Notes under the pieces: model-generated
What the model was told of the DNA's origin: nothing
What the model saw: the letters and a program-made list of their open reading frames with translations, nothing else
The model's database searches: none
DNA from: Acinetobacter sp. WCHA45
GTDB taxonomy: Bacteria; Pseudomonadota; Gammaproteobacteria; Pseudomonadales; Moraxellaceae
NCBI RefSeq assembly: GCF_002165255.2
Contig: NZ_CP028561.1
Span: forward strand, 2,728,001 to 2,792,000
Reading direction: 5' to 3'
DNA: 64,000 nt
Made by a program: the position numbers and the translations under genes
In this document: positions 1-8,914 of the stretch, piece after piece
Layout: each line of letters begins with the position of its first letter
How positions within the stretch are numbered: the first letter of the stretch is position 1

Positions 1-923
1 TGCCATTCACCTAAACTAATTAAGGTTTCGACAAAGGTGGCAGGATAGTCATCATGACGTAATCCTTTAATAACACCTTGAGGCTGTAAATCCGTTAAAG
101 CTGCATAACCAATCGGTATCGGCACGAGCCAACCTTTTAAATGTTCAGGCCGTGGTCGTAACGTCCAAACACCGTCTACTGACTCTTGATCGACTGATGC
201 TTCCTGTGCAGTACTGACAAAATTGAAGCGGTGAATGTCCAATAAAGTATCGAGTAAATCAGGACTATTTTTCTGAGTCGCTAAATATGTTGGATACTGA
301 GCCAACCAATTTTGATGTGCCATCAAAAGCTCATGACGATGCTGTAAAGCAAAGCCTGGTAATACACTCCGACGTAGTATTTTGGTTTTATCTACCGCAT
401 CATGTTCTGACCAATTGATCAATTTAGCTTTGACACGCTTATGTGGGAAAACAGAACCACCTGCCAAACGCATGTTATAGACCAAGTGATTTAATCGATC
501 TAACAGGCTTTGTGTCTGAGTAGATAAATCTTCATCATTGGCAGATAGATGCGGATCAAGACCATCTCCCGCCAAACCAATCACTAAACTGACTTCAAAA
601 TGTCCCTTGCCCTCTTCAATCATCGCTGGTGTAGAACCATCTGCTTTCAAGGGGTGACGAGCCAAATTCAGTTGATAAGGCGAATAGCGGAAACTATTGG
701 TTTTGGTAATTTGTGGGTTAAATTGATGAGATATAATCCCGACACCACAACACTCAATAGATGCATATTCAGCAATTTGATTCAGCTGACGCTGTAAATG
801 ATGCATAAATCCAGTGAATGCACTCGGTGCTGGGAAGCCCCACGTTAAATGACTACTGATAATAGATGCATTTTCAACATTTAAACGTACAACATACAAT
901 GCTTTAGGATAAGTCCGATGCAT
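1..923 (-). CDS. csy2: Type I-F Cascade subunit Csy2 (Cas5f), 3' part outside window
   Basis: Open minus-strand frame running off the left edge; about 307 residues are visible, beginning MHRTYPKALYVVRLNVENAS. Csy2 is the Cas5-like subunit that, with Csy1, caps the 5' handle of the crRNA in the type I-F surveillance complex. The start ATG (921-923) shares one base with the csy1 stop (TAATG), so the two are translationally coupled. Identification rests on position directly after csy1 and on Csy2-like sequence such as HLTWGFPAPSAFTGF near residue 26. Csy3 and Cas6f are expected beyond the window. No stop or frameshift in the visible part. Confidence 0.9.
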   Translation of the reverse strand, partial: MHRTYPKALYVVRLNVENASIISSHLTWGFPAPSAFTGFMHHLQRQLNQIAEYASIECCGVGIISHQFNPQITKTNSFRYSPYQLNLARHPLKADGSTPAMIEEGKGHFEVSLVIGLAGDGLDPHLSANDEDLSTQTQSLLDRLNHLVYNMRLAGGSVFPHKRVKAKLINWSEHDAVDKTKILRRSVLPGFALQHRHELLMAHQNWLAQYPTYLATQKNSPDLLDTLLDIHRFNFVSTAQEASVDQESVDGVWTLRPRPEHLKGWLVPIPIGYAALTDLQPQGVIKGLRHDDYPATFVETLISLGEW

Positions 924-2257
924 TAGGCAAACTCCTCTTTCAGCAATTGTAATTTGTCACGTAAAATCAGAGACCAAGCACGGGCTTCATGATCATCTAA
1001 ATCCAAAATTTTTCCTTTTTGGGTGAGGATATCATTGAGCCATTTGCCAAAGTTATAACCCACTTCAGTATGCCAATCTCGTTCACGATAGGCCTGTAAC
1101 CACTCGGTTTCTTCTTCCGTCAATTCTTCGGCATCTTCTTTATCAAACAGTGCTTCTCGGTAGCCATAATCGAGCCAAAAGCTTTCTGCACGACTAAAAT
1201 TAGAATCCTGTGTCCAGCCTGATGGCGCACTTTGTTGTAGTTCAAAACTCATATCAATGATGCAATCCGCCAATTTAGAGACCAAATCATCACGCTGGGA
1301 ACGGAATTCATCATTATTACGACGATTTTCTTTACGATACAAAGCCACGATTTTATGCAACAAAGGCTTAATGTCTTTACGATTGCTTAAATAGGCTGTA
1401 AAAACCGAACCACGTTTTGGTAGTTCAATCTGCTGACCTTTCCAAGTTGGTGGAATAGACGGTAATAGCCACATAGAGCCACGACGGTCACTATTAAGCT
1501 GTGAAATATTTTGTGGTTTAGAACCACCAAAATTTTGTACCAATAGATTCGGGTATTCACGGCTTTCATGTGCATGATGTAATTTTTTAAACCGTGCTTC
1601 ATGTAGTGCTTTACTCTCATCGCTAAACCGATCATATGAGAGCTGTTGATACGCTCGATGAACCAATGAACTCGGATATAAAATCACCAAGGTATGATAT
1701 TCATCATCTTGCACAGGAAATAACACTTGTTTCGATAAACGTCCTGCATTGAGTTCTGTTGGCAACTGACTAAATGCTAAAAAACGCTCATAACGCAGTT
1801 GTGCCGTTTCAGATTTCACAGACAATGCTGTGATTAATTCCTGATCTGCATTTAACAAACGCTCTAGTAACGACGTACCTTGAAAAGATAAACGCAGCAT
1901 CTTAAAGACATCGAGTACAGCTGCATTACCAATGACATCCGCATCTAGTTTGATACCTTGGGAACCCACATAGTCATGTGTTTTATCCGTATTGCTATAA
2001 AACATGGCAGATGCTTTTGAATCAGGATGATGCTGTTTCGGCGTATGAGTCGCCAAACGTAATTGGCTAATACGCAAACTTGCATCATCAAGCCACGTTT
2101 CAACCTCATATTTTTCTAATAACTTGTTACGCTCTGCCGTGTCATCCGCTTTAAGTTTTTCTAGCTTTTCATTCAAACGTCCTTGAATATATTGCTCGAT
2201 TAACTCACGAATGCTAGCAGGCTCGGAGTCTTGAACTCCCTCTACTTCATCATTCAT
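923..2257 (-). CDS. csy1: Type I-F Cascade large subunit Csy1 (Cas8f)
   Basis: 444 residues, the usual Csy1 length. In the I-F complex Csy1 recognises the CC PAM and, with Csy2, holds the 5' end of the crRNA. The sequence is acidic at both ends with no membrane segment. It follows cas2-3 after an unusually long gap of 406 bp, whereas the rest of the operon is overlapped or coupled. That gap carries the CreTA-like unit described separately and must also hold or transmit the promoter for csy1-csy2-csy3-cas6f. Start ATG at 2257 is the only plausible one; no strong Shine-Dalgarno precedes it (AATGAGTACAAAAA). Confidence 0.93.
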   Translation of the reverse strand: MNDEVEGVQDSEPASIRELIEQYIQGRLNEKLEKLKADDTAERNKLLEKYEVETWLDDASLRISQLRLATHTPKQHHPDSKASAMFYSNTDKTHDYVGSQGIKLDADVIGNAAVLDVFKMLRLSFQGTSLLERLLNADQELITALSVKSETAQLRYERFLAFSQLPTELNAGRLSKQVLFPVQDDEYHTLVILYPSSLVHRAYQQLSYDRFSDESKALHEARFKKLHHAHESREYPNLLVQNFGGSKPQNISQLNSDRRGSMWLLPSIPPTWKGQQIELPKRGSVFTAYLSNRKDIKPLLHKIVALYRKENRRNNDEFRSQRDDLVSKLADCIIDMSFELQQSAPSGWTQDSNFSRAESFWLDYGYREALFDKEDAEELTEEETEWLQAYRERDWHTEVGYNFGKWLNDILTQKGKILDLDDHEARAWSLILRDKLQLLKEEFA

Positions 2258-2353
2258 TTTTTGTACTCATTACAAAATAAATTATGTTTTAAATCATTTT
2301 TTGTTATCATCTAGATAGATTAACTATCGTAAATGATGAATGTATCCAATTAA

Positions 2354-2386
2354 TCAGACCCTTCTGATTAAATGCGTGCTAAACAT
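2354..2386 (-). CDS. creT: CreT-like toxin mini-ORF, 10 codons with tandem AGA-AGG
   Basis: Reads M-F-S-T-H-L-I-R-R-V-stop; codons 8 and 9 are AGA and AGG, both minor arginine codons. Eight bases, TAAGGGGG (2399-2392), can pair along the anti-Shine-Dalgarno with one G:U, five bases before the ATG: far stronger than the sites of neighbouring cas genes. TAATCAGA and TCTGATTA (2349-2368) form a perfect 8-bp stem with a 4-nt loop over the tandem codons and stop. Known CreT RNAs are tiny, highly translated ORFs with rare codons plus a stem that sequester a minor tRNA (family knowledge). Function here is inferred from this match, the promoter position and the guide target upstream. Confidence 0.72.
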   Translation of the reverse strand: MFSTHLIRRV

Positions 2387-2448
2387 TATTTCCCCCTTAC
2401 CCTATCGGGTGATGTGTGATCCTGCCAGATCGATGGTTAATCTTTATT

Positions 2449-2481
2449 TAAATATTAAACCTAGTTACTTTAATTCAAACT
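2449..2481 (-). promoter_or_regulatory. Probable creT promoter, covered by the CreA target
   Basis: On the minus strand a -35-like TTGAAT (2478-2473) is followed by AT-rich -10 candidates TAATAT (2457-2452, 15-bp spacer) or TATTTA (2454-2449, 18-bp spacer), about 60-70 bp before the mini-ORF. The guide target (2462-2481) covers the -35 and the spacer, so effector binding would block transcription. An 8-bp inverted repeat, GTTACTTT ... AAAGTAAC (2464-2490), also brackets the -35. The exact -10 is uncertain. Confidence 0.5.
2460..2481 (+). promoter_or_regulatory. CC PAM plus protospacer-like target of the adjacent guide
   Basis: CC at 2460-2461, the type I-F PAM, is followed by TAGTTACTTTAATTCAAACT (2462-2481). 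This matches the guide at 2600-2619 at 17 of 20 positions. Mismatches are at guide positions 6, 11 and 18. Positions 6 and 18 are bases that type I effectors flip out and do not read. Partial pairing of this kind supports binding without Cas2-3 cleavage in known CreA/CreR guides (family knowledge). Confidence 0.75.
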
Positions 2482-2571
2482 AAAAGTAACCATAACAAGT
2501 AAAATACAGATTTTTCTTTTATTCCACAAGCTATTTCTATGTAAAATAAAAAGACTTATCATTACTAAGTA

Positions 2572-2647
2572 AGGCACTACCATAAAGGTAGCTTAGAAAT
2601 AGTTCCTTTTATTCAATCTGTTCACTGCCATATAGGCAGCTTAGAAA
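2572..2647 (+). CRISPR. creA: Minimal CRISPR-like unit (CreA-like guide RNA gene)
   Basis: Two I-F-type repeats flank a 20-nt guide. Repeat 2 (2620-2647) is a full 28-nt I-F repeat starting GTTCACTGCC and ending CTTAGAAA. Repeat 1 (2572-2599) matches it at 22 of the last 25 bases; the first three bases differ and the final CTTAGAAA 5'-handle is intact. Hairpin changes in repeat 1 break part of the stem. The guide (2600-2619) is 12 nt shorter than the usual 32-nt I-F spacer. A -10-like TATCAT at 2557-2562 would start transcription about 10 bases before repeat 1. Orientation is opposite to the cas operon. Most likely a crRNA-like regulatory guide; a relic mini-array is the alternative. Confidence 0.78.
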
Positions 2648-2653
2648 GCAAGG

Positions 2654-2678
2654 TTTATCAGGGTTATTCCCTGATAAA
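2654..2678. terminator. Hairpin over the cas2-3 stop codon
   Basis: Perfect 10-bp inverted repeat TTTATCAGGG / CCCTGATAAA with a 5-nt loop that contains the cas2-3 stop. No clear T-run follows on either strand, so it may terminate weakly, end the CreA transcript or protect the cas2-3 mRNA end. Confidence 0.4.
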
Positions 2679-5600
2679 TCCTAACCAATCGTGGTATTTC
2701 CACTTTTGCAGGTCTTCTAGCTTGGGTAAATTTAAACTTAAATAACGCCCACAATTCTCACTCCAAATTCTTTCATTTGGATTGACCTCCACATATTTCT
2801 GCAATGCCTGCTGAGGATTCTGATTTGGCCAACAATGAATCTGCGGATTGTTAGGTAGCTCAACTCGTCGAATTAAACTTTCTTCATAAAGCCAATTTCC
2901 CGTTTTATCGTTATAGGCATAAAGACCTAACTCGCTCTCTTCTTCCTCTGCCCTAAATGCCATTAACTTTTCTGCTTGTGATTGTCTAAATTGGCTCAAG
3001 CGTTGCAGAATACCTGTGTAATGAATGGGCGTGTTCCAAAAAGCATAGGTTGGAAATTTAATCGGTACACTTTTACTCACTCGCATATCAGAGCTAATTC
3101 CTTGCCCCAATAAAATTGAATGCATGCGATCATGTTCTAAATCAACTAAATTTGGATAACCAAATTTTTCATAATATTTCTTTAAGTAGTTTGCTCCCGG
3201 TTGTTGCAAACGTGGTATAGCATCTAATTGATCTAGATGTACTTTTCGAATTAACCCATTATCAACATTCTCAGCAGTACCATTTAAAAAATGTCTATCC
3301 GCTTTAAACTCGAAACCTGTCGCTTCAAAGCCTGGGCGTGAAAAACAACTTCGATCAGGATGTTTAAAATGTCGAATATTGGTTTCCATTAAAAATACAT
3401 TTGGTTTGTTATAAGCTTCTATCCGATGGCGTCGCACCCTTCCAGAAGCCTGAATAATCGAACGCATAGATGATGGTTCTAAGATCATCCAATCATAGTC
3501 GTGATCTCGCCCCACCTCACAGACAGGCGAGGCGAAAACCAAAATAATATGTTGTTGTTCTGGATATCTTTTTAACCACCCCTTAACCATGGCATGATCG
3601 TGTGGCTGTTTAGCTTGGTTTCGATCTAAAATTTCGTCTAAATATTTTTCAATATTTGCACGCATTAACAATGGAAAACGCGAATGATAGACACAAATAT
3701 GAATACGTATATTTGGATCAATTTGCTGTTTTAATATTTGCTGAGCAATCTCCGCCAAAGGATCAATATTGGCAAAACGTACCAAGCCTACGCTGTATTG
3801 TTTGCCTGTATCGGGATCTGTAATCGAATTTTCACGATGTGCAAGCATTGTTGTTTGCAGAATTTTTTCCGCAAATACTTTTTCCCACTTCTCCTGAGCT
3901 GATATTTTTCGGGGTAATCCCACCCATTCAACTGTACGTCGTTTAGTGTGCTGTGCTTGCTGATTTAAGAATTCAACACGTTGTTTAGTAAATTTGAGAT
4001 GGGCTTTTTTAAAGATGTCGTTCGCTTGACTGTCACTGATATTTTGATCACAAGGAATGACCTCATGATAAATACTGCTTGGATTTTCATCAAACCACGC
4101 AGCAATAATCGGTTGGTCTGCTTGTGTACGATTGGCATTATAAAATTTTCGCCCTGAACTATACGCTAAATACAAACCATTAATTTCGGCAGGTGTTAGC
4201 GTTGCAGAGGACAATAATACCCGACTACCCAGTAAACCTGCCCAGTGTACTAAACGTGTCAATGCATAATAATCTTCAGGAGAAAAATCATCAGGTTCAT
4301 CAAGTACCAAATCTGAAGACATTAAACGTAACATCGGTGCAATTTGTTTACCGCCACGCGTACTTTCAGTGGCTGGAATCAAATGATCTATCGTGCAACA
4401 TAAAATAGGACTCATCAGCATTTTTCTAACTTGATGATTTCCCTTTAACCATTTGGCAAACATATGCTGCTGATCCAGAATGCCTTCGAAATCTAGCTCA
4501 TGATCATCGTAATCCACATAACTTTCTTCATCTGTAAGACCATTTAAGGATTCTGAACCAATATTTTCTGCAATATACTGATTTTGTTTAGGATCAAGAT
4601 TTTCTATATTTTCTTGTAAAATTTCAGATGAATCTTTCTGACTATAACTTTCAAATATTTCTTTAACTGCTCCGCCACCGACCATAATGGCTAAATCAGT
4701 TTCATCCAAATCGAGTTTTTGACGTAAAGCCTTACCTGTTTGCAAAGTTAATGTTCTAAGACCTAAAGCAATATTAAAACGTGCACCTTTTTCAGGATCA
4801 GCAAGGCCGTACATAATGCGGGTATTACCCAAGGTTTTGCCTCGACCTGTCGAAGCTAAATTCACACCAAAAAAACCATGATTTGGATAGTCTTTTTGTA
4901 TTTTACGCGCCAGTTGATAAGACTTATCTTGCCATTGGTAATATGGATTATTGGTTTTTCCTTCCAAACTTTTTTGCTGAGGTAAATGATCAAACAAGGC
5001 ATCTAATCGAGTCAATGCCCCCATAAGTTGCCTAACCGATTGACTCACTCCCACCAAATGATCATCTAGTGTTTGTTTTAATGATCCAAATTTATCTGTA
5101 TTAGCATATCGCTCATAACTTGGATCATGCCATTTAGGATTGGCATCACAGCTTGAATAATAATGATCTGACAACATTAAGGTCAACCGTGAAATATGAC
5201 TCACATACGGATCATATAACCCAATTGAATGAGGAAGATTCAGCAGTTGCATTAAATTTCCTGCACATGAATTTGCTTCTTTACACCACGTGTCACTATT
5301 GAAAGGAATATGCTCTTGCCGAATATCCCAGCATTTCTTAATTTCTTTTTGTTTACTGGTATCATCCTCTAAATATTGTTTTGGATAGCACCATTTAAAG
5401 TTTAAGTCATCCAAAACCGTTTTAAATTTGTTTGCTTCATAACTTGGATCCTTTGTATTTAGTATAGGTAAGCGATGATGTGAAACAATGAGCCATGCGG
5501 TTAGTTTTGCAATCGATGGTAAATTTTGAAAAGGCGAATTTGATACTTGGTCGATTTCATCTTTAATAACATTTTCAAACCACGAAAAATCATGACGTTT

Positions 5601-6149
5601 TCCAGATATTGAAGTTAGCTGAGAAATCCAATCCTTATCTGTATCGCCACAACTATGCACAAAAGCTTCAAATAATCTCAAAGAAATCCATTCATGTCGA
5701 AACGGATCTGCTACTGGTTTTTTATTCTTTAAAGCATTTTTTAGCTTTGCTGCAAAAAAAGGATTAATTTTACCAAAATCATGAAATAGTGCCGCGATAC
5801 GAGTGATTTGACTAACAAAACTTGCTGAGTGCCAATTCTGATCACAATAATCTACTTTTAGCTGTTTTGATGTTCGATTGACTGGCACAATTCCTTCACT
5901 ATTAAATTTGTTGTGATTGCCCACTATCCACAGCAACTCACTTCTACGCCTGCCCCGAATCCAATGACAACTTACTGCTGTACTTTTAGTCACAGTCTTA
6001 CGCAACAATTTTTTAACTGAGATTAGACCTTCTTCGGTAATCACCGTTTGCCAGGTGTTATCTCCAATCCGATCAGCAAAAGCATCTAGCACACGCCTGG
6101 TTCGAGGAATCGCTTTCTTTTCGCATTGGCTAATAAACGTCACAATCAT
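2664..6149 (-). CDS. cas2-3: Type I-F Cas2-Cas3 fusion nuclease-helicase
   Basis: 1161 residues, the normal size for the I-F fusion that both partners Cas1 in spacer acquisition and degrades targets. Residues 1 to about 95 form the Cas2 domain. The HD nuclease follows (HDFGK near residue 123). The helicase has Walker A GRGKT near 434, a DEPD box near 617, SSATL (motif III) and QASGRVRRHR (motif VI) near 898. All motifs are intact, so the nuclease should be active. Its start overlaps the cas1 stop by four bases (ATGA). The gene ends 16 bp from the canonical repeat of the creA-like unit. Confidence 0.95.
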   Translation of the reverse strand: MIVTFISQCEKKAIPRTRRVLDAFADRIGDNTWQTVITEEGLISVKKLLRKTVTKSTAVSCHWIRGRRRSELLWIVGNHNKFNSEGIVPVNRTSKQLKVDYCDQNWHSASFVSQITRIAALFHDFGKINPFFAAKLKNALKNKKPVADPFRHEWISLRLFEAFVHSCGDTDKDWISQLTSISGKRHDFSWFENVIKDEIDQVSNSPFQNLPSIAKLTAWLIVSHHRLPILNTKDPSYEANKFKTVLDDLNFKWCYPKQYLEDDTSKQKEIKKCWDIRQEHIPFNSDTWCKEANSCAGNLMQLLNLPHSIGLYDPYVSHISRLTLMLSDHYYSSCDANPKWHDPSYERYANTDKFGSLKQTLDDHLVGVSQSVRQLMGALTRLDALFDHLPQQKSLEGKTNNPYYQWQDKSYQLARKIQKDYPNHGFFGVNLASTGRGKTLGNTRIMYGLADPEKGARFNIALGLRTLTLQTGKALRQKLDLDETDLAIMVGGGAVKEIFESYSQKDSSEILQENIENLDPKQNQYIAENIGSESLNGLTDEESYVDYDDHELDFEGILDQQHMFAKWLKGNHQVRKMLMSPILCCTIDHLIPATESTRGGKQIAPMLRLMSSDLVLDEPDDFSPEDYYALTRLVHWAGLLGSRVLLSSATLTPAEINGLYLAYSSGRKFYNANRTQADQPIIAAWFDENPSSIYHEVIPCDQNISDSQANDIFKKAHLKFTKQRVEFLNQQAQHTKRRTVEWVGLPRKISAQEKWEKVFAEKILQTTMLAHRENSITDPDTGKQYSVGLVRFANIDPLAEIAQQILKQQIDPNIRIHICVYHSRFPLLMRANIEKYLDEILDRNQAKQPHDHAMVKGWLKRYPEQQHIILVFASPVCEVGRDHDYDWMILEPSSMRSIIQASGRVRRHRIEAYNKPNVFLMETNIRHFKHPDRSCFSRPGFEATGFEFKADRHFLNGTAENVDNGLIRKVHLDQLDAIPRLQQPGANYLKKYYEKFGYPNLVDLEHDRMHSILLGQGISSDMRVSKSVPIKFPTYAFWNTPIHYTGILQRLSQFRQSQAEKLMAFRAEEEESELGLYAYNDKTGNWLYEESLIRRVELPNNPQIHCWPNQNPQQALQKYVEVNPNERIWSENCGRYLSLNLPKLEDLQKWKYHDWLGFIRE

Positions 6150-7126
6150 AATGCTTCTCCATCTACATCATGATTTTTACAAGCTTGTGCTTTAACTTGA
6201 TCAAACATAAAGTCCAGACATTTATGCTCGGTAAATTTCTGCAAAATCTGCTGTCTAAATTCTTGTTCAGTCATTTTTTCTTTGGCGCAAATAAAGGCAT
6301 AAGGCAAAACCACAGCATCCTTAATTAAATCTGCCACATCAAACACTAAAGCCCCTCGACGCGTCTTGCCATGCATGACTGCAAAACCGTGTGGAATTCC
6401 AAGTACCCAAAGTGTTGTCGCTGCTAAACCATAAGCCAGATAATTGCCATGATTTAAAAAATCATTGGCTAAATCACCTTGTTCAGGATTGCGACTAAAA
6501 TCCTTTAAACCTGTACGAGTCGCTGCAATTTTATAAAGTTGCTTTGTGGTTGCAGCTTCTGCAAGTAGTAAGTCTCCAACTTTAGTTTGTTGTGAAATTC
6601 TTGCTGCATAACCCGTTAAAGCCTGTTGAATATCTAAATCATCCACATGAAAGGTATATTCTTTTAAATCTCGGTCTTTCGACCAAATCTTCTGAATATA
6701 TTCAACTCGTGCCAATTGAAAATGTTTAGCAACATCTAAGCGTTTGGCTTCATCAAACCAAAATTGCATCCAACCTTGCATATACTCAGTTGGACGGTAT
6801 TCACTTTGTGGTGTCATCCATTCAATTTCACAGCCCATAAACAAAGGCGTGCCACCTCCACCTGCAAAACCAACCAGAACACCTGCACTTGCGAGCATGC
6901 GCATTGCTGCTTGAGTAATTGATGTGCCTGTACCCAATAGAATCACTGTAGTATTGGCAATTGGAATATTCCAGTACTGATTTTCGTTTTTAGCCTCGGT
7001 CAGATAAAGAACTCGACCATCTTTCTGCATCACACGGCAATGTTCAAGATAGTACAAATTGGCACGTTTCGAATGTAATATTGCTTTTAGATCTGATGGA
7101 TTAAGCTGTTCCATTCTTATCATCAA
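6146..7126 (-). CDS. cas1: Type I-F CRISPR integrase Cas1
   Basis: 326 residues as drawn. Cas1 is the metal-dependent DNA integrase that inserts new spacers, working with the Cas2 domain of Cas2-3. The C-terminal half has the expected helical domain with conserved stretch GNYLAYGLAATTLWVLGIPH and acidic/histidine residues further on. Family members usually begin M-E-x-L-N-P-S-D-L-K, so the true start may be the ATG at 7114 (322 residues) rather than 7126; neither has a strong Shine-Dalgarno. First gene of the operon; the promoter should lie in 7127-7271, where a CGTCA/TGACG inverted repeat (7195-7209) is visible. Confidence 0.93.
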   Translation of the reverse strand: MMIRMEQLNPSDLKAILHSKRANLYYLEHCRVMQKDGRVLYLTEAKNENQYWNIPIANTTVILLGTGTSITQAAMRMLASAGVLVGFAGGGGTPLFMGCEIEWMTPQSEYRPTEYMQGWMQFWFDEAKRLDVAKHFQLARVEYIQKIWSKDRDLKEYTFHVDDLDIQQALTGYAARISQQTKVGDLLLAEAATTKQLYKIAATRTGLKDFSRNPEQGDLANDFLNHGNYLAYGLAATTLWVLGIPHGFAVMHGKTRRGALVFDVADLIKDAVVLPYAFICAKEKMTEQEFRQQILQKFTEHKCLDFMFDQVKAQACKNHDVDGEAL

Positions 7127-7271: not shown

Positions 7272-8321
7272 TTAATACACTGGGGCTAATATCTTCTTCT
7301 CTTTCCCCCCTAACCAGACTAAATACTCATTCTCTATCGCCTGTTTATAAGCCCAATCAGCAACTCGATGTGAGCGTTGGAGATCAGTCAAAAAACCAAA
7401 TTGCGAAATTTCCTGAGTAATCGCATGATTATGCAGATGATTACGTTCTCTCCATTGCTCCAAGAATTGCTCGGATGCTAAATAATTACTTTTCTGTGAA
7501 TTACATTTGTCATCTGACAGAACAAAGTTATGTCCGGTATCGGCAGGATATAAAGACCATGGAATAAAATGATCTACAGCATATTTGGAATTTTTTAGGC
7601 TTTTGCCACAGTAAAAACACTGGCATTGCTGTAAATCAATTAAGAAGTCCGCGACCTGCCCCAGTTGATTGCGACTTGGGGCAAACATGAATTCATCCAG
7701 GTCAGGCAAACCATCCAGTACCACCAGGTTCTGCTTGTTTAGCCGAACGAAATCAATCCAGCGTTTCTGACACAACTCTTCAATGATTTCACTAAATTGT
7801 CTTAAGCAATACATCACCTTGGGCAACAGCTTGAGGGACTGCTTGGAATCTTCAAGATTATAGAGAAATTCTACGATTTGACCATTTAAATTCTGCAAAT
7901 ATACTACCGGCATTTGCTTTACCGTTGTCGCAACTGTTCGCTTCAGCCTGTTCCAGTAAAGTACATCCTTTCTCAACGCGGCCAAGGTCTTGAATTGTTG
8001 CTGTGCATTCTGAATTTCACTGATGATCTTTGCCTGCTTACCAGTGCTTTGATGAATAGTAAAAGGCTCATACTGGTTAAACTGAAACGGCAGTGACTGT
8101 TTCCAGTACAGGTCAATAAACTTTTCAGCAATATCCTGATATTCCAAATGCAAGGCAGCACCGGTATCTTGACCCTGTTCAATCGCCAGACGCGTGATAC
8201 TTATCAGCAAAGCAAACTTATATGTCGAAGTAAATGCCCCTGACTGCAAAATCTGCTGAATATGCTTCAAGAATTTTAACTGTTCTTGAGGGGTTGGTAT
8301 TTCGGCTATACTGAATAACAT
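7272..8321 (-). CDS. HNH endonuclease, probable defence gene
   Basis: 349 residues. The C-terminal third is an HNH nuclease: CxxC (CFYCGK, near residue 235), the DHFIPW strand near 248, then a His-Asn and DDKCNSQKSNYL near 268-279. The CxxC would form the zinc site with a second pair. The N-terminal 230 residues are helical and not recognised. The start is 2 bp after the methyltransferase stop, so the two form an operon, and the pair sits directly upstream of cas1. The context suggests an anti-phage role, but the substrate is unknown. Restriction with protective methylation is one option; the partner looks more like a small-molecule methyltransferase than a DNA one. Confidence 0.75.
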   Translation of the reverse strand: MLFSIAEIPTPQEQLKFLKHIQQILQSGAFTSTYKFALLISITRLAIEQGQDTGAALHLEYQDIAEKFIDLYWKQSLPFQFNQYEPFTIHQSTGKQAKIISEIQNAQQQFKTLAALRKDVLYWNRLKRTVATTVKQMPVVYLQNLNGQIVEFLYNLEDSKQSLKLLPKVMYCLRQFSEIIEELCQKRWIDFVRLNKQNLVVLDGLPDLDEFMFAPSRNQLGQVADFLIDLQQCQCFYCGKSLKNSKYAVDHFIPWSLYPADTGHNFVLSDDKCNSQKSNYLASEQFLEQWRERNHLHNHAITQEISQFGFLTDLQRSHRVADWAYKQAIENEYLVWLGGKEKKILAPVY

Positions 8322-8323
8322 AT

Positions 8324-8914
8324 CTAAGCCTGCACTTTTCTAATCAGAATATTAAGCCACTCTTCTGTACGGTCTGGACGTTTATCTACAGTAATCCATT
8401 GCTGTAACAGTAAAGCCTGATCTATTTGTTTGAGTAAGTCGTAAGCTTGCTGCTCATTCAAGTCAGTAAAGCTGCGCCCTTCTTTCTCACGGTCTGTATC
8501 GCCATATTTAAAAGACATATAACACACACCATTTGGCTTTAATGCTTTAAATATTCGCGCCAGTACTTCAGTCAGGCGATCTCTTTCACAGTGTAAAAGA
8601 GAAGCACAAGCCCAAATCCCATCATACTTAGCTACTTCATTCAGCTCATAAAAATTTTGCTGACGTACCTCGATGCCTGTCAGCTCTCTCGCCTTTTCAA
8701 CCAGCTCGGCAGAATAATCAATTGCCTCAACTTGATAGCCTTTTTTCTTAAATGCCAGAGTGTCACGCCCAGAGCCACAGCCCAAATCCAGGATCAATGC
8801 CTGTTCCGGCAAATATCTTAGAAATGGTGTGTAAAGACTTTCCATCTCAACCTGATAGGTATTTTCAAAAAATGCTTGAGCATGTTGATTGTAATAATTT
8901 GATGTTTGATTCAT
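8324..8914 (-). CDS. Class I SAM-dependent methyltransferase (TehB/UbiE-like)
   Basis: 196 residues with a Rossmann fold. Motif I is LDLGCGSGRDTLAFKKKG near residue 42, followed by the acidic EAIDYS strand that binds the ribose of SAM. There is no NPPY or DPPY motif of amino-DNA methylases and no PC motif of cytosine-C5 methylases, so a small molecule or protein is the likelier target. It is the first gene of a two-gene operon with the HNH nuclease, 2 bp apart. The substrate cannot be read from sequence. Confidence 0.8.
   Translation of the reverse strand: MNQTSNYYNQHAQAFFENTYQVEMESLYTPFLRYLPEQALILDLGCGSGRDTLAFKKKGYQVEAIDYSAELVEKARELTGIEVRQQNFYELNEVAKYDGIWACASLLHCERDRLTEVLARIFKALKPNGVCYMSFKYGDTDREKEGRSFTDLNEQQAYDLLKQIDQALLLQQWITVDKRPDRTEEWLNILIRKVQA

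Follow-up and report, generated by a model that had tools for sequence, protein, structure and literature searches.

What does a two-repeat CRISPR element do in the gap between cas2-3 and csy1 of an Acinetobacter type I-F locus, and does its guide serve a toxin gene, the cas genes, or both? The question arises from a stretch of 64,000 nucleotides, here called the window, and from an earlier note on it that was made from the sequence alone. We followed it through the anatomy of the gap, the match of the guide to its target and a comparison with related csy1 loci.

The CreTA module of Haloarcula hispanica belongs to subtype I-B, and its repeats and PAM are other than those of the window. As in the window, a crRNA-like CreA represses an RNA toxin beside the cas genes (PMC9458426, PMC8501985); the gap also drives cas transcription (PMC9458426), and CreT, a bacteriostatic toxin, sequesters a rare tRNA (PMC10097628). 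For type I-F, Wang et al. (2023, Nat Commun, PMC10097628) reported creTA in Acinetobacter sp. WCHA45, LoGeW2-3 and ANC3789 and mentioned 19 further modules, to which some of the relatives named below may belong. For the WCHA45 module they described processing by Csy4, Csy-dependent repression at the transcript level and a bactericidal RNA toxicity, the toxic agent being the RNA and not a peptide (PMC10097628). Both toxicity and repression were assayed in A. baumannii AYE, not in the native host, and the repression assay used a creA with replaced repeats (PMC10097628). In a related arrangement, CreR, a crRNA-like RNA steers the effector to the cas promoter through partial complementarity (PMC12737573, PMC13131331), and autorepression of this type has been reported in I-B, I-E and V-A systems (PMC13131331).

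Results

The cas locus and its mini-CRISPR

Each of the genes csy1, csy2, csy3, csy4, cas2-3 and cas1 scores above the NCBIfam cut-off of its type I-F model, the effector set is complete, and a scan of the genome contigs gave a single locus. Starting about 130 nt past csy4, the CRISPR array is very long (G000:C6 from ~2710933 to L175:1030, with 252 repeat matches on one strand). On the other side of the locus, the ORF beside cas1 (7272-8321, -) carries by eye an HNH-like cysteine/histidine motif, and a further ORF near cas1 (8324-8914, -) looks methyltransferase-like by eye. Coordinates of the features discussed are collected in Table 1.

Table 1. Features of the cas2-3/csy1 gap and of the genes around it (window coordinates)
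Feature	Position	Strand	Basis or detail
csy1 (cas8f)	923-2257	-	TIGR02564
Third hairpin, creT-csy1 interval, without T run after it	2306-2337	-	fold of window
Second CreT hairpin, 9 bp, covering mini-ORF 3' half and stop	2350-2371	-	covariation; fold
creT mini-ORF, 33 nt, MFSTHLIRRV + stop	2354-2386	-	codons 2/3/5 TTT/AGC/CAT
CreT start-codon hairpin, nt 1-4 with 12-15, loop 5-11	2372-2386	-	covariation in 17 loci
creT Shine-Dalgarno AAGGGGG	2392-2398	-	
CreA target: CC PAM 2460-2461 and protospacer 2462-2481	2460-2481	+	17/20 match
Predicted creT promoter	2501-2529	-	-35 TTGTGG 2524-2529, 17-nt spacer, -10 TATTTT 2501-2506
creA, two-repeat mini-CRISPR	2572-2647	+	read from sequence
creA PsiR1, degenerate CRISPR repeat	2572-2599	+	sequence; 88% to PsiR2 over 25 nt
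5' handle CTTAGAAA ending PsiR1	2592-2599	+	5-bp stem plus handle
creA guide PsiS, 20 nt, TAGTTCCTTTTATTCAATCT	2600-2619	+	
creA PsiR2, canonical type I-F repeat	2620-2647	+	Rfam CRISPR-DR4, 44.8 bits, gathering 35
Terminator-like hairpin, cas2-3 3' end	2654-2678	-	1 found, 0.1 expected in shuffles
cas2-3 (cas3f)	2664-6149	-	TIGR02562
cas1f	6146-7126	-	TIGR03637

The gap measures 406 nt, from cas2-3 (ending at 2664) to csy1 (starting at 2257), both genes being on the minus strand. The degenerate repeat, 20-nt guide and canonical I-F repeat that the earlier note had described there are confirmed on the sequence, with PsiR2 passing the Rfam CRISPR-DR4 model. Over its last 27 nt PsiR2 agrees fully with one repeat of the genome's own array and is one base off the repeat that dominates the first 100 matches listed by a repeat-pattern search of the genome; with up to three mismatches, that pattern gave 252 reverse matches and one forward match, the latter being PsiR2. 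The stem of PsiR1 is altered on both sides (CTACC/GGTAG vs CTGCC/GGCAG), so the hairpin is kept. As in CreTA modules, two CRISPR-repeat-like elements thus enclose a single short spacer outside the main array and within the cas locus. The terminator-like hairpin at the end of cas2-3, of a kind also seen by eye in relatives, would separate csy1-4 from cas1-cas2-3 transcription.

Match of the guide to its target

The guide TAGTTCCTTTTATTCAATCT agrees with TAGTTACTTTAATTCAAACT (2462-2481), right after CC, at 17 of 20 positions, the mismatches being 6, 11 and 18. Direct reading bore out the earlier note in this, and its claim that such a match goes beyond chance held as well: none of 5000 dinucleotide-shuffled gaps gave 17/20 after CC (best 16), 100 shuffles of the window held no guide match with at most three mismatches, and in the whole 3.09-Mb genome CC plus guide, at up to three mismatches, matched only the guide itself and 2462-2481. 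As in CreTA, the site with which the spacer can partly pair has a PAM next to it and lies at the promoter or leader of the toxin gene. A dead CRISPR-array remnant whose match is due to chance would also show a degenerate PsiR1 and a match of just 17/20. It is hardly conceivable here, being ruled out by the shuffles, the uniqueness of the match in the genome and the relatives, in which guide and target are coupled and mismatches cluster at 6/12/18 in 49 distinct guides; the published function also speaks against it.

The creT gene and its hairpins

We locate creT, for which the earlier note gave no position, at 2354-2386 (-), where it reads ATG TTT AGC ACG CAT TTA ATC AGA AGG GTC TGA. This 33-bp mini-ORF follows a strong Shine-Dalgarno sequence, diverges from creA and lies downstream of the target, as in CreTA. 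CreR generally comes without a coupled toxin gene, and the guide-repressed toxin of CrePA is a protein, typically with a KilA-N domain (PMC12737573); the window differs from both in having creT, with ten codons and a stop. The predicted creT promoter, read by eye, lies upstream of the CreA target on the creT/csy1 strand and is missing from the output of a consensus promoter scan. The motif TTGTGR-N17-TATYTT is also seen by eye in three relatives (L011, L069, L070), and the creT start site of WCHA45 was mapped upstream of the target (PMC10097628).

The published WCHA45 module has, like the window, a cas3-csy1 gap of about 400 bp, two PsiR elements, a 20-nt guide and a CC PAM; 17 of 20 guide positions are paired, all but the 6th, 11th and 18th, and TTT, AGC and CAT are codons 2, 3 and 5 of a divergent 33-bp mini-ORF (PMC10097628). 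No difference from the window was found in the accessible text of that paper. From the shared mismatches and mini-ORF codons we infer that the window holds the WCHA45 creTA locus or one identical to it, and its strain is probably WCHA45 or a sibling. The CreA-type antitoxin proposed by the earlier note is therefore correct and already in print for Acinetobacter sp. WCHA45 (PMC10097628). Since the locus has been described, the module is already known, and the suggestion that it might be new fails on position, PAM, mismatches and mini-ORF codons alike. A sister locus (L011) shares creT codons 2/3/5 with the window and has its mismatches at 6, 12 and 13. The LoGeW2-3 module (plasmid NZ_CP024012.1, L070) has the same gap, a guide-target match of 17/20, a creT reading MFSTHLVRRV and a csy1 92% identical to the window's; it differs in being plasmid-borne, in an inter-repeat spacer of 31 nt vs 20 and in its mismatches (6, 12, 14).

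Natural variation bears on the structure of CreT. Across 17 creT loci, the start-codon stem (nt 1-4/12-15) is paired in 97.1% of cells, and the pair nt1-nt15 is A-U in 10, G-C in 6 and G-U in 1. For this stem, neither the paired percentage nor the covariation score nor the count of cells with both sides changed was reached in any of 500 shuffles; the count of pairs changed on both sides was reached by 375/500 and the number of pair types by 56/500. The start codon changes together with its nt15 partner, as the published mutants predict: an A1-U15 to G-C mutant remains toxic (PMC10097628). Both L056 and L107 have C at loop nt 5, a change that was reported to retain toxicity (PMC10097628). On covariation, the start codon is thus held in the CreT hairpin, as expected of CreTA. 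Folding programs alone express no preference for this hairpin of 4 bp: the lowest-energy structure of the short CreT RNA by itself is another one, and the fold of the 233-nt leader lacks the hairpin. In the second hairpin, 4 of 9 pairs are changed on both sides among 8 close loci, a count that 136 of 500 shuffles reached for the whole structure; none reached the covariation score. Where the third hairpin sits, a 12-pair hairpin is found in L013, L015, L016, L019 and L085, and stricter hairpin criteria list none for the window.

Taken together with the published work, the window locus is almost certainly a type I-F CreTA module (type VIII toxin-antitoxin) of Acinetobacter, as described for WCHA45. 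In the proposed mechanism, creA would be transcribed on the plus strand, Csy4 would cut both PsiR hairpins and the crRNA-like CreA RNA would enter the Csy complex. Bound to the CC-flanked site just downstream of the creT start site, CreA-Csy would block transcription without productive cleavage. Upon loss or inhibition of the Csy complex creT would be transcribed, and its RNA, with a strong Shine-Dalgarno sequence and a start-codon hairpin, would kill the cell, probably through disturbed translation initiation. Because creT would kill once Csy fails, the cell would be tied to a working Csy complex. The anatomy, the uniqueness of the target and the covariation were observed here; the window strain presumably behaves as published for WCHA45, and the bound site is presumably not productively cut. 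The creT of ANC3789 is non-toxic in AYE (PMC10097628), so toxicity is not provable from sequence alone.

Guide-target coupling in relatives

We found csy1 in 36/175 genomes of the genus, 51/390 of the order, 72/346 of the family (profile A1) and 32/369 of the class, these sets overlapping, and in 17 plasmid records, 5 of which were retrieved; the genome matches were likewise retrieved in part. Of 174 loci collected, 25 were dropped (duplicates, array or pattern matches) and 149 were scanned, many of them having no cas gap. The scan looked for a hairpin plus handle, took the next 20 nt as guide and searched the gap for a CC-flanked target. Pairs of at least 14/20 were obtained in 56/149 loci, and with reversed guides after CC in 0/149. 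When GG, AA, TT, GT or CA replaced CC, 2, 8, 7, 2 and 6 of the 149 loci reached at least 14/20 with true guides and 2, 8, 6, 1 and 4 with reversed ones.

With a shuffled-guide p of at most 0.005 as a further demand, 54/149 csy1 loci have a self-matching guide, and these comprise 49 distinct guides. The earlier note had named covariation of guide and target across relatives as a check, and it is found: the own gap is strictly the best for 40/49 distinct guides and best or tied for 47/49. The mean match of these guides is 15.96 in the own gap vs 9.92 in other gaps, and 0.9% of cross pairs reach 14, the best (19) coming from close relatives. Targets identical to the guide were excluded from the cross-pairing, so L094 (20/20) is undercounted there. 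Three loci fell outside the 54: L016 (14/20, p 0.0175), and L019 and L062, undetected by the scan, whose hand-read guides match at 12/20 and 11/20 with mismatches not limited to 6/12/18. The gap of some relatives held no convincing guide-target pair; in L043, L054, L058 and L111, for example, the best was 10, 9, 10 and 8 of 20. As for arrangement, the mini-CRISPR of L063 and L136 is oriented as csy1, unlike that of the window, and L016 has about 0.9 kb of extra DNA between cas2-3 and creA (about 3200-4110 of the locus).

Mismatches in the 49 guides fall at position 6 in 34, at 12 in 33 and at 18 in 30, with a mean of 3.7 at the fifteen other positions up to 18, none at positions 1-5, which are part of those fifteen, and 15 and 22 at positions 19 and 20. 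Type I effectors flip out guide positions 6, 12 and 18. The best matches of shuffled guides have a flat profile of about 0.5 at every position, and the cut-off of at least 14/20 constrains the number of mismatches, not their location. The window itself has 6 and 18, with 11 in place of 12.

This pattern also bears on whether CreA pairs with creT RNA rather than guiding Csy to DNA. Such antisense action would be in keeping with the complementarity between the guide and the 5' part of the creT RNA. It is nevertheless very improbable, since the CC flank and the 6/12/18 pattern are unexpected for antisense pairing and the target lies on the strand opposite to the window's in L013, L015, L016, L085, L052 and L066. 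Moreover, antitoxic function depends on the Csy complex and is accompanied by a drop in transcript levels; the published tests also included a PAM mutant (PMC10097628). With targets on either strand, repression by a guided Csy complex may not require one fixed target strand.

Cargo between target and csy1

By our own classes, in which a toxin-bearing locus has a creT-like start behind a strong Shine-Dalgarno sequence and a locus without cargo has a short distance to csy1, the 54 accepted loci divide into 15 toxin-bearing, one with a decayed creT (L069), 27 without cargo, 5 with a small protein ORF and 6 unclassed. The assignment of L094 to the small-ORF class is weak, as it shows just a 34-aa ORF, and below the acceptance line stand L016 and L019 (creT) and L062 (small ORF). 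A strict hairpin search gave 13 creT loci of 149, and L016, L056, L085 and L107 were added from reading the mini-ORF; not all are standard 33-bp ORFs, the frame being open at codon 11 in L048 and L110 and L114 having only 5 codons. Beyond the window's clade, toxin-less states are based on distance and on the lack of an ORF with a strong Shine-Dalgarno sequence; neither L105 nor L163 showed a csy1 start with a fair Shine-Dalgarno sequence.

The clade that holds the window in a csy1 tree of 68 rows has 13 members (support 100/100): 8 toxin-bearing loci, the decayed L069 and 4 toxin-less ones (L012, L014, L017, L018). A topology uniting the four toxin-less rows is rejected (AU p 8e-87). In the clade, several of whose inner branches are weak, the toxin state requires 4 changes; states were fixed before the tree, and the restriction to this clade was chosen afterwards. 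Creation or removal of the toxin gene cannot be separated by the tree itself; creT-like elements outside the clade (L044, L048, L049, L052, L053, L056, L107, L110, L114) make loss within it likelier. In L069 (plasmid NZ_CP156773.1), the creT core at 6856-6920 reads MSSKT and its start-codon hairpin is broken, so that from its sequence creT looks decayed; guide and target still match at 17/20. In L012, L014, L017 and L018 the target lies 18, 20, 26 and 24 nt before csy1, where a bound Csy complex would cover the csy1 promoter or leader.

Other ORFs occupy the same interval elsewhere. After the target, two order relatives, L062 and L064, have 67-aa ORFs that resemble each other and contain one hydrophobic stretch, possibly encoding a guide-repressed small membrane protein; the guide-target match is 19/20 in L064, with the only mismatch at 6, and 11/20 in L062. 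Further ORFs are found in L063 (76 aa), L066 (47 aa, from reading only) and L089 (a DUF2188 protein). A Pfam search of four small cargo proteins, that of L062 included, gave nothing except DUF2188 for the piece from L089.

Discussion

The anatomy of the window leads to the question of what the guide does for the cas genes. The creT promoter may also be the main promoter of csy1-csy4, in which case CreA-Csy would repress the toxin together with its own genes; such a dual role would complement the CreTA explanation and not replace it. We incline slightly towards it. CreT and csy1 share a strand with no terminator-like site in between, and a terminator-like hairpin closes cas2-3 upstream. The four clade loci without creT, which do not form a single group, keep their target close to csy1, and L069 keeps a matched guide beside its decayed creT. 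In Haloarcula hispanica, removal of the cas6-cas8 gap, which holds creTA, cut cas8 transcription by 91.1% (PMC9458426). Against the dual role, a weak -35/-10-like pair (9/12) at 2310-2281 is a possible own promoter of csy1; one such pair was found where shuffled sequences gave a mean of 2.8. Toxin-bearing loci of other families have a strong hairpin in the creT-csy1 interval, followed in some by T residues, and promoter scans of the toxin-less gaps came out empty for L012 and L014 and at chance level for L017 and L018.

That weak pair downstream of creT is also what would be expected if csy1 had its own promoter and CreA acted on creT alone, and the reporter work described in the accessible text of PMC10097628 is limited to the creT promoter. 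This restricted action is quite possible, if a little short of an even chance; it gives no reason for the continued guide-target match in loci whose creT is missing or decayed.

The toxin-less relatives and CreR look alike. CreR is known from I-B, I-E and V-A (PMC13131331), whereas the relatives are of type I-F and have their target at a site that holds creT in sister loci. The CreR target is at the cas promoter or leader; in the four sisters the target lies 18-26 nt before csy1, and in the window 204 nt before csy1 with creT in between. Shmakov and colleagues are said to have described, in 2023, mini-arrays partly complementary to cas8 promoters, reportedly with autoregulation through I-F mini-arrays and one I-F1 case tested. 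In a limited literature search, no title or abstract was found that treats toxin-bearing and toxin-less states in one I-F clade.

A broader reading, which to us stands evenly poised, is that the I-F cas3-csy1 junction would be a guide-controlled slot with exchangeable cargo, CreTA and CreR being states of one device and the window's CreA having a dual role. If so, a mini-CRISPR in many I-F systems would direct Csy to the promoter supplying csy1. The slot would be empty in the case of autorepression, and would otherwise be filled by the creT RNA toxin, giving addiction, or by a gene for a small protein. Repeated loss or gain of creT would have taken place in the window's clade while the guide was retained, and partial loss of Csy would raise csy expression and toxin together.

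An RNA toxin-antitoxin of Acinetobacter, known from the literature to make cells CRISPR-dependent, is confirmed here in unannotated DNA, and the present analysis adds the comparison of relatives. The creT loci provide natural evidence for the CreT start-codon hairpin, and the mismatch pattern is an evolutionary reading of the guide positions used by the Csy complex. Finally, the presence, decay and absence of creT in one csy1 clade, with guide and target staying matched, bears on how addiction modules and CRISPR autorepressors may arise from one another.
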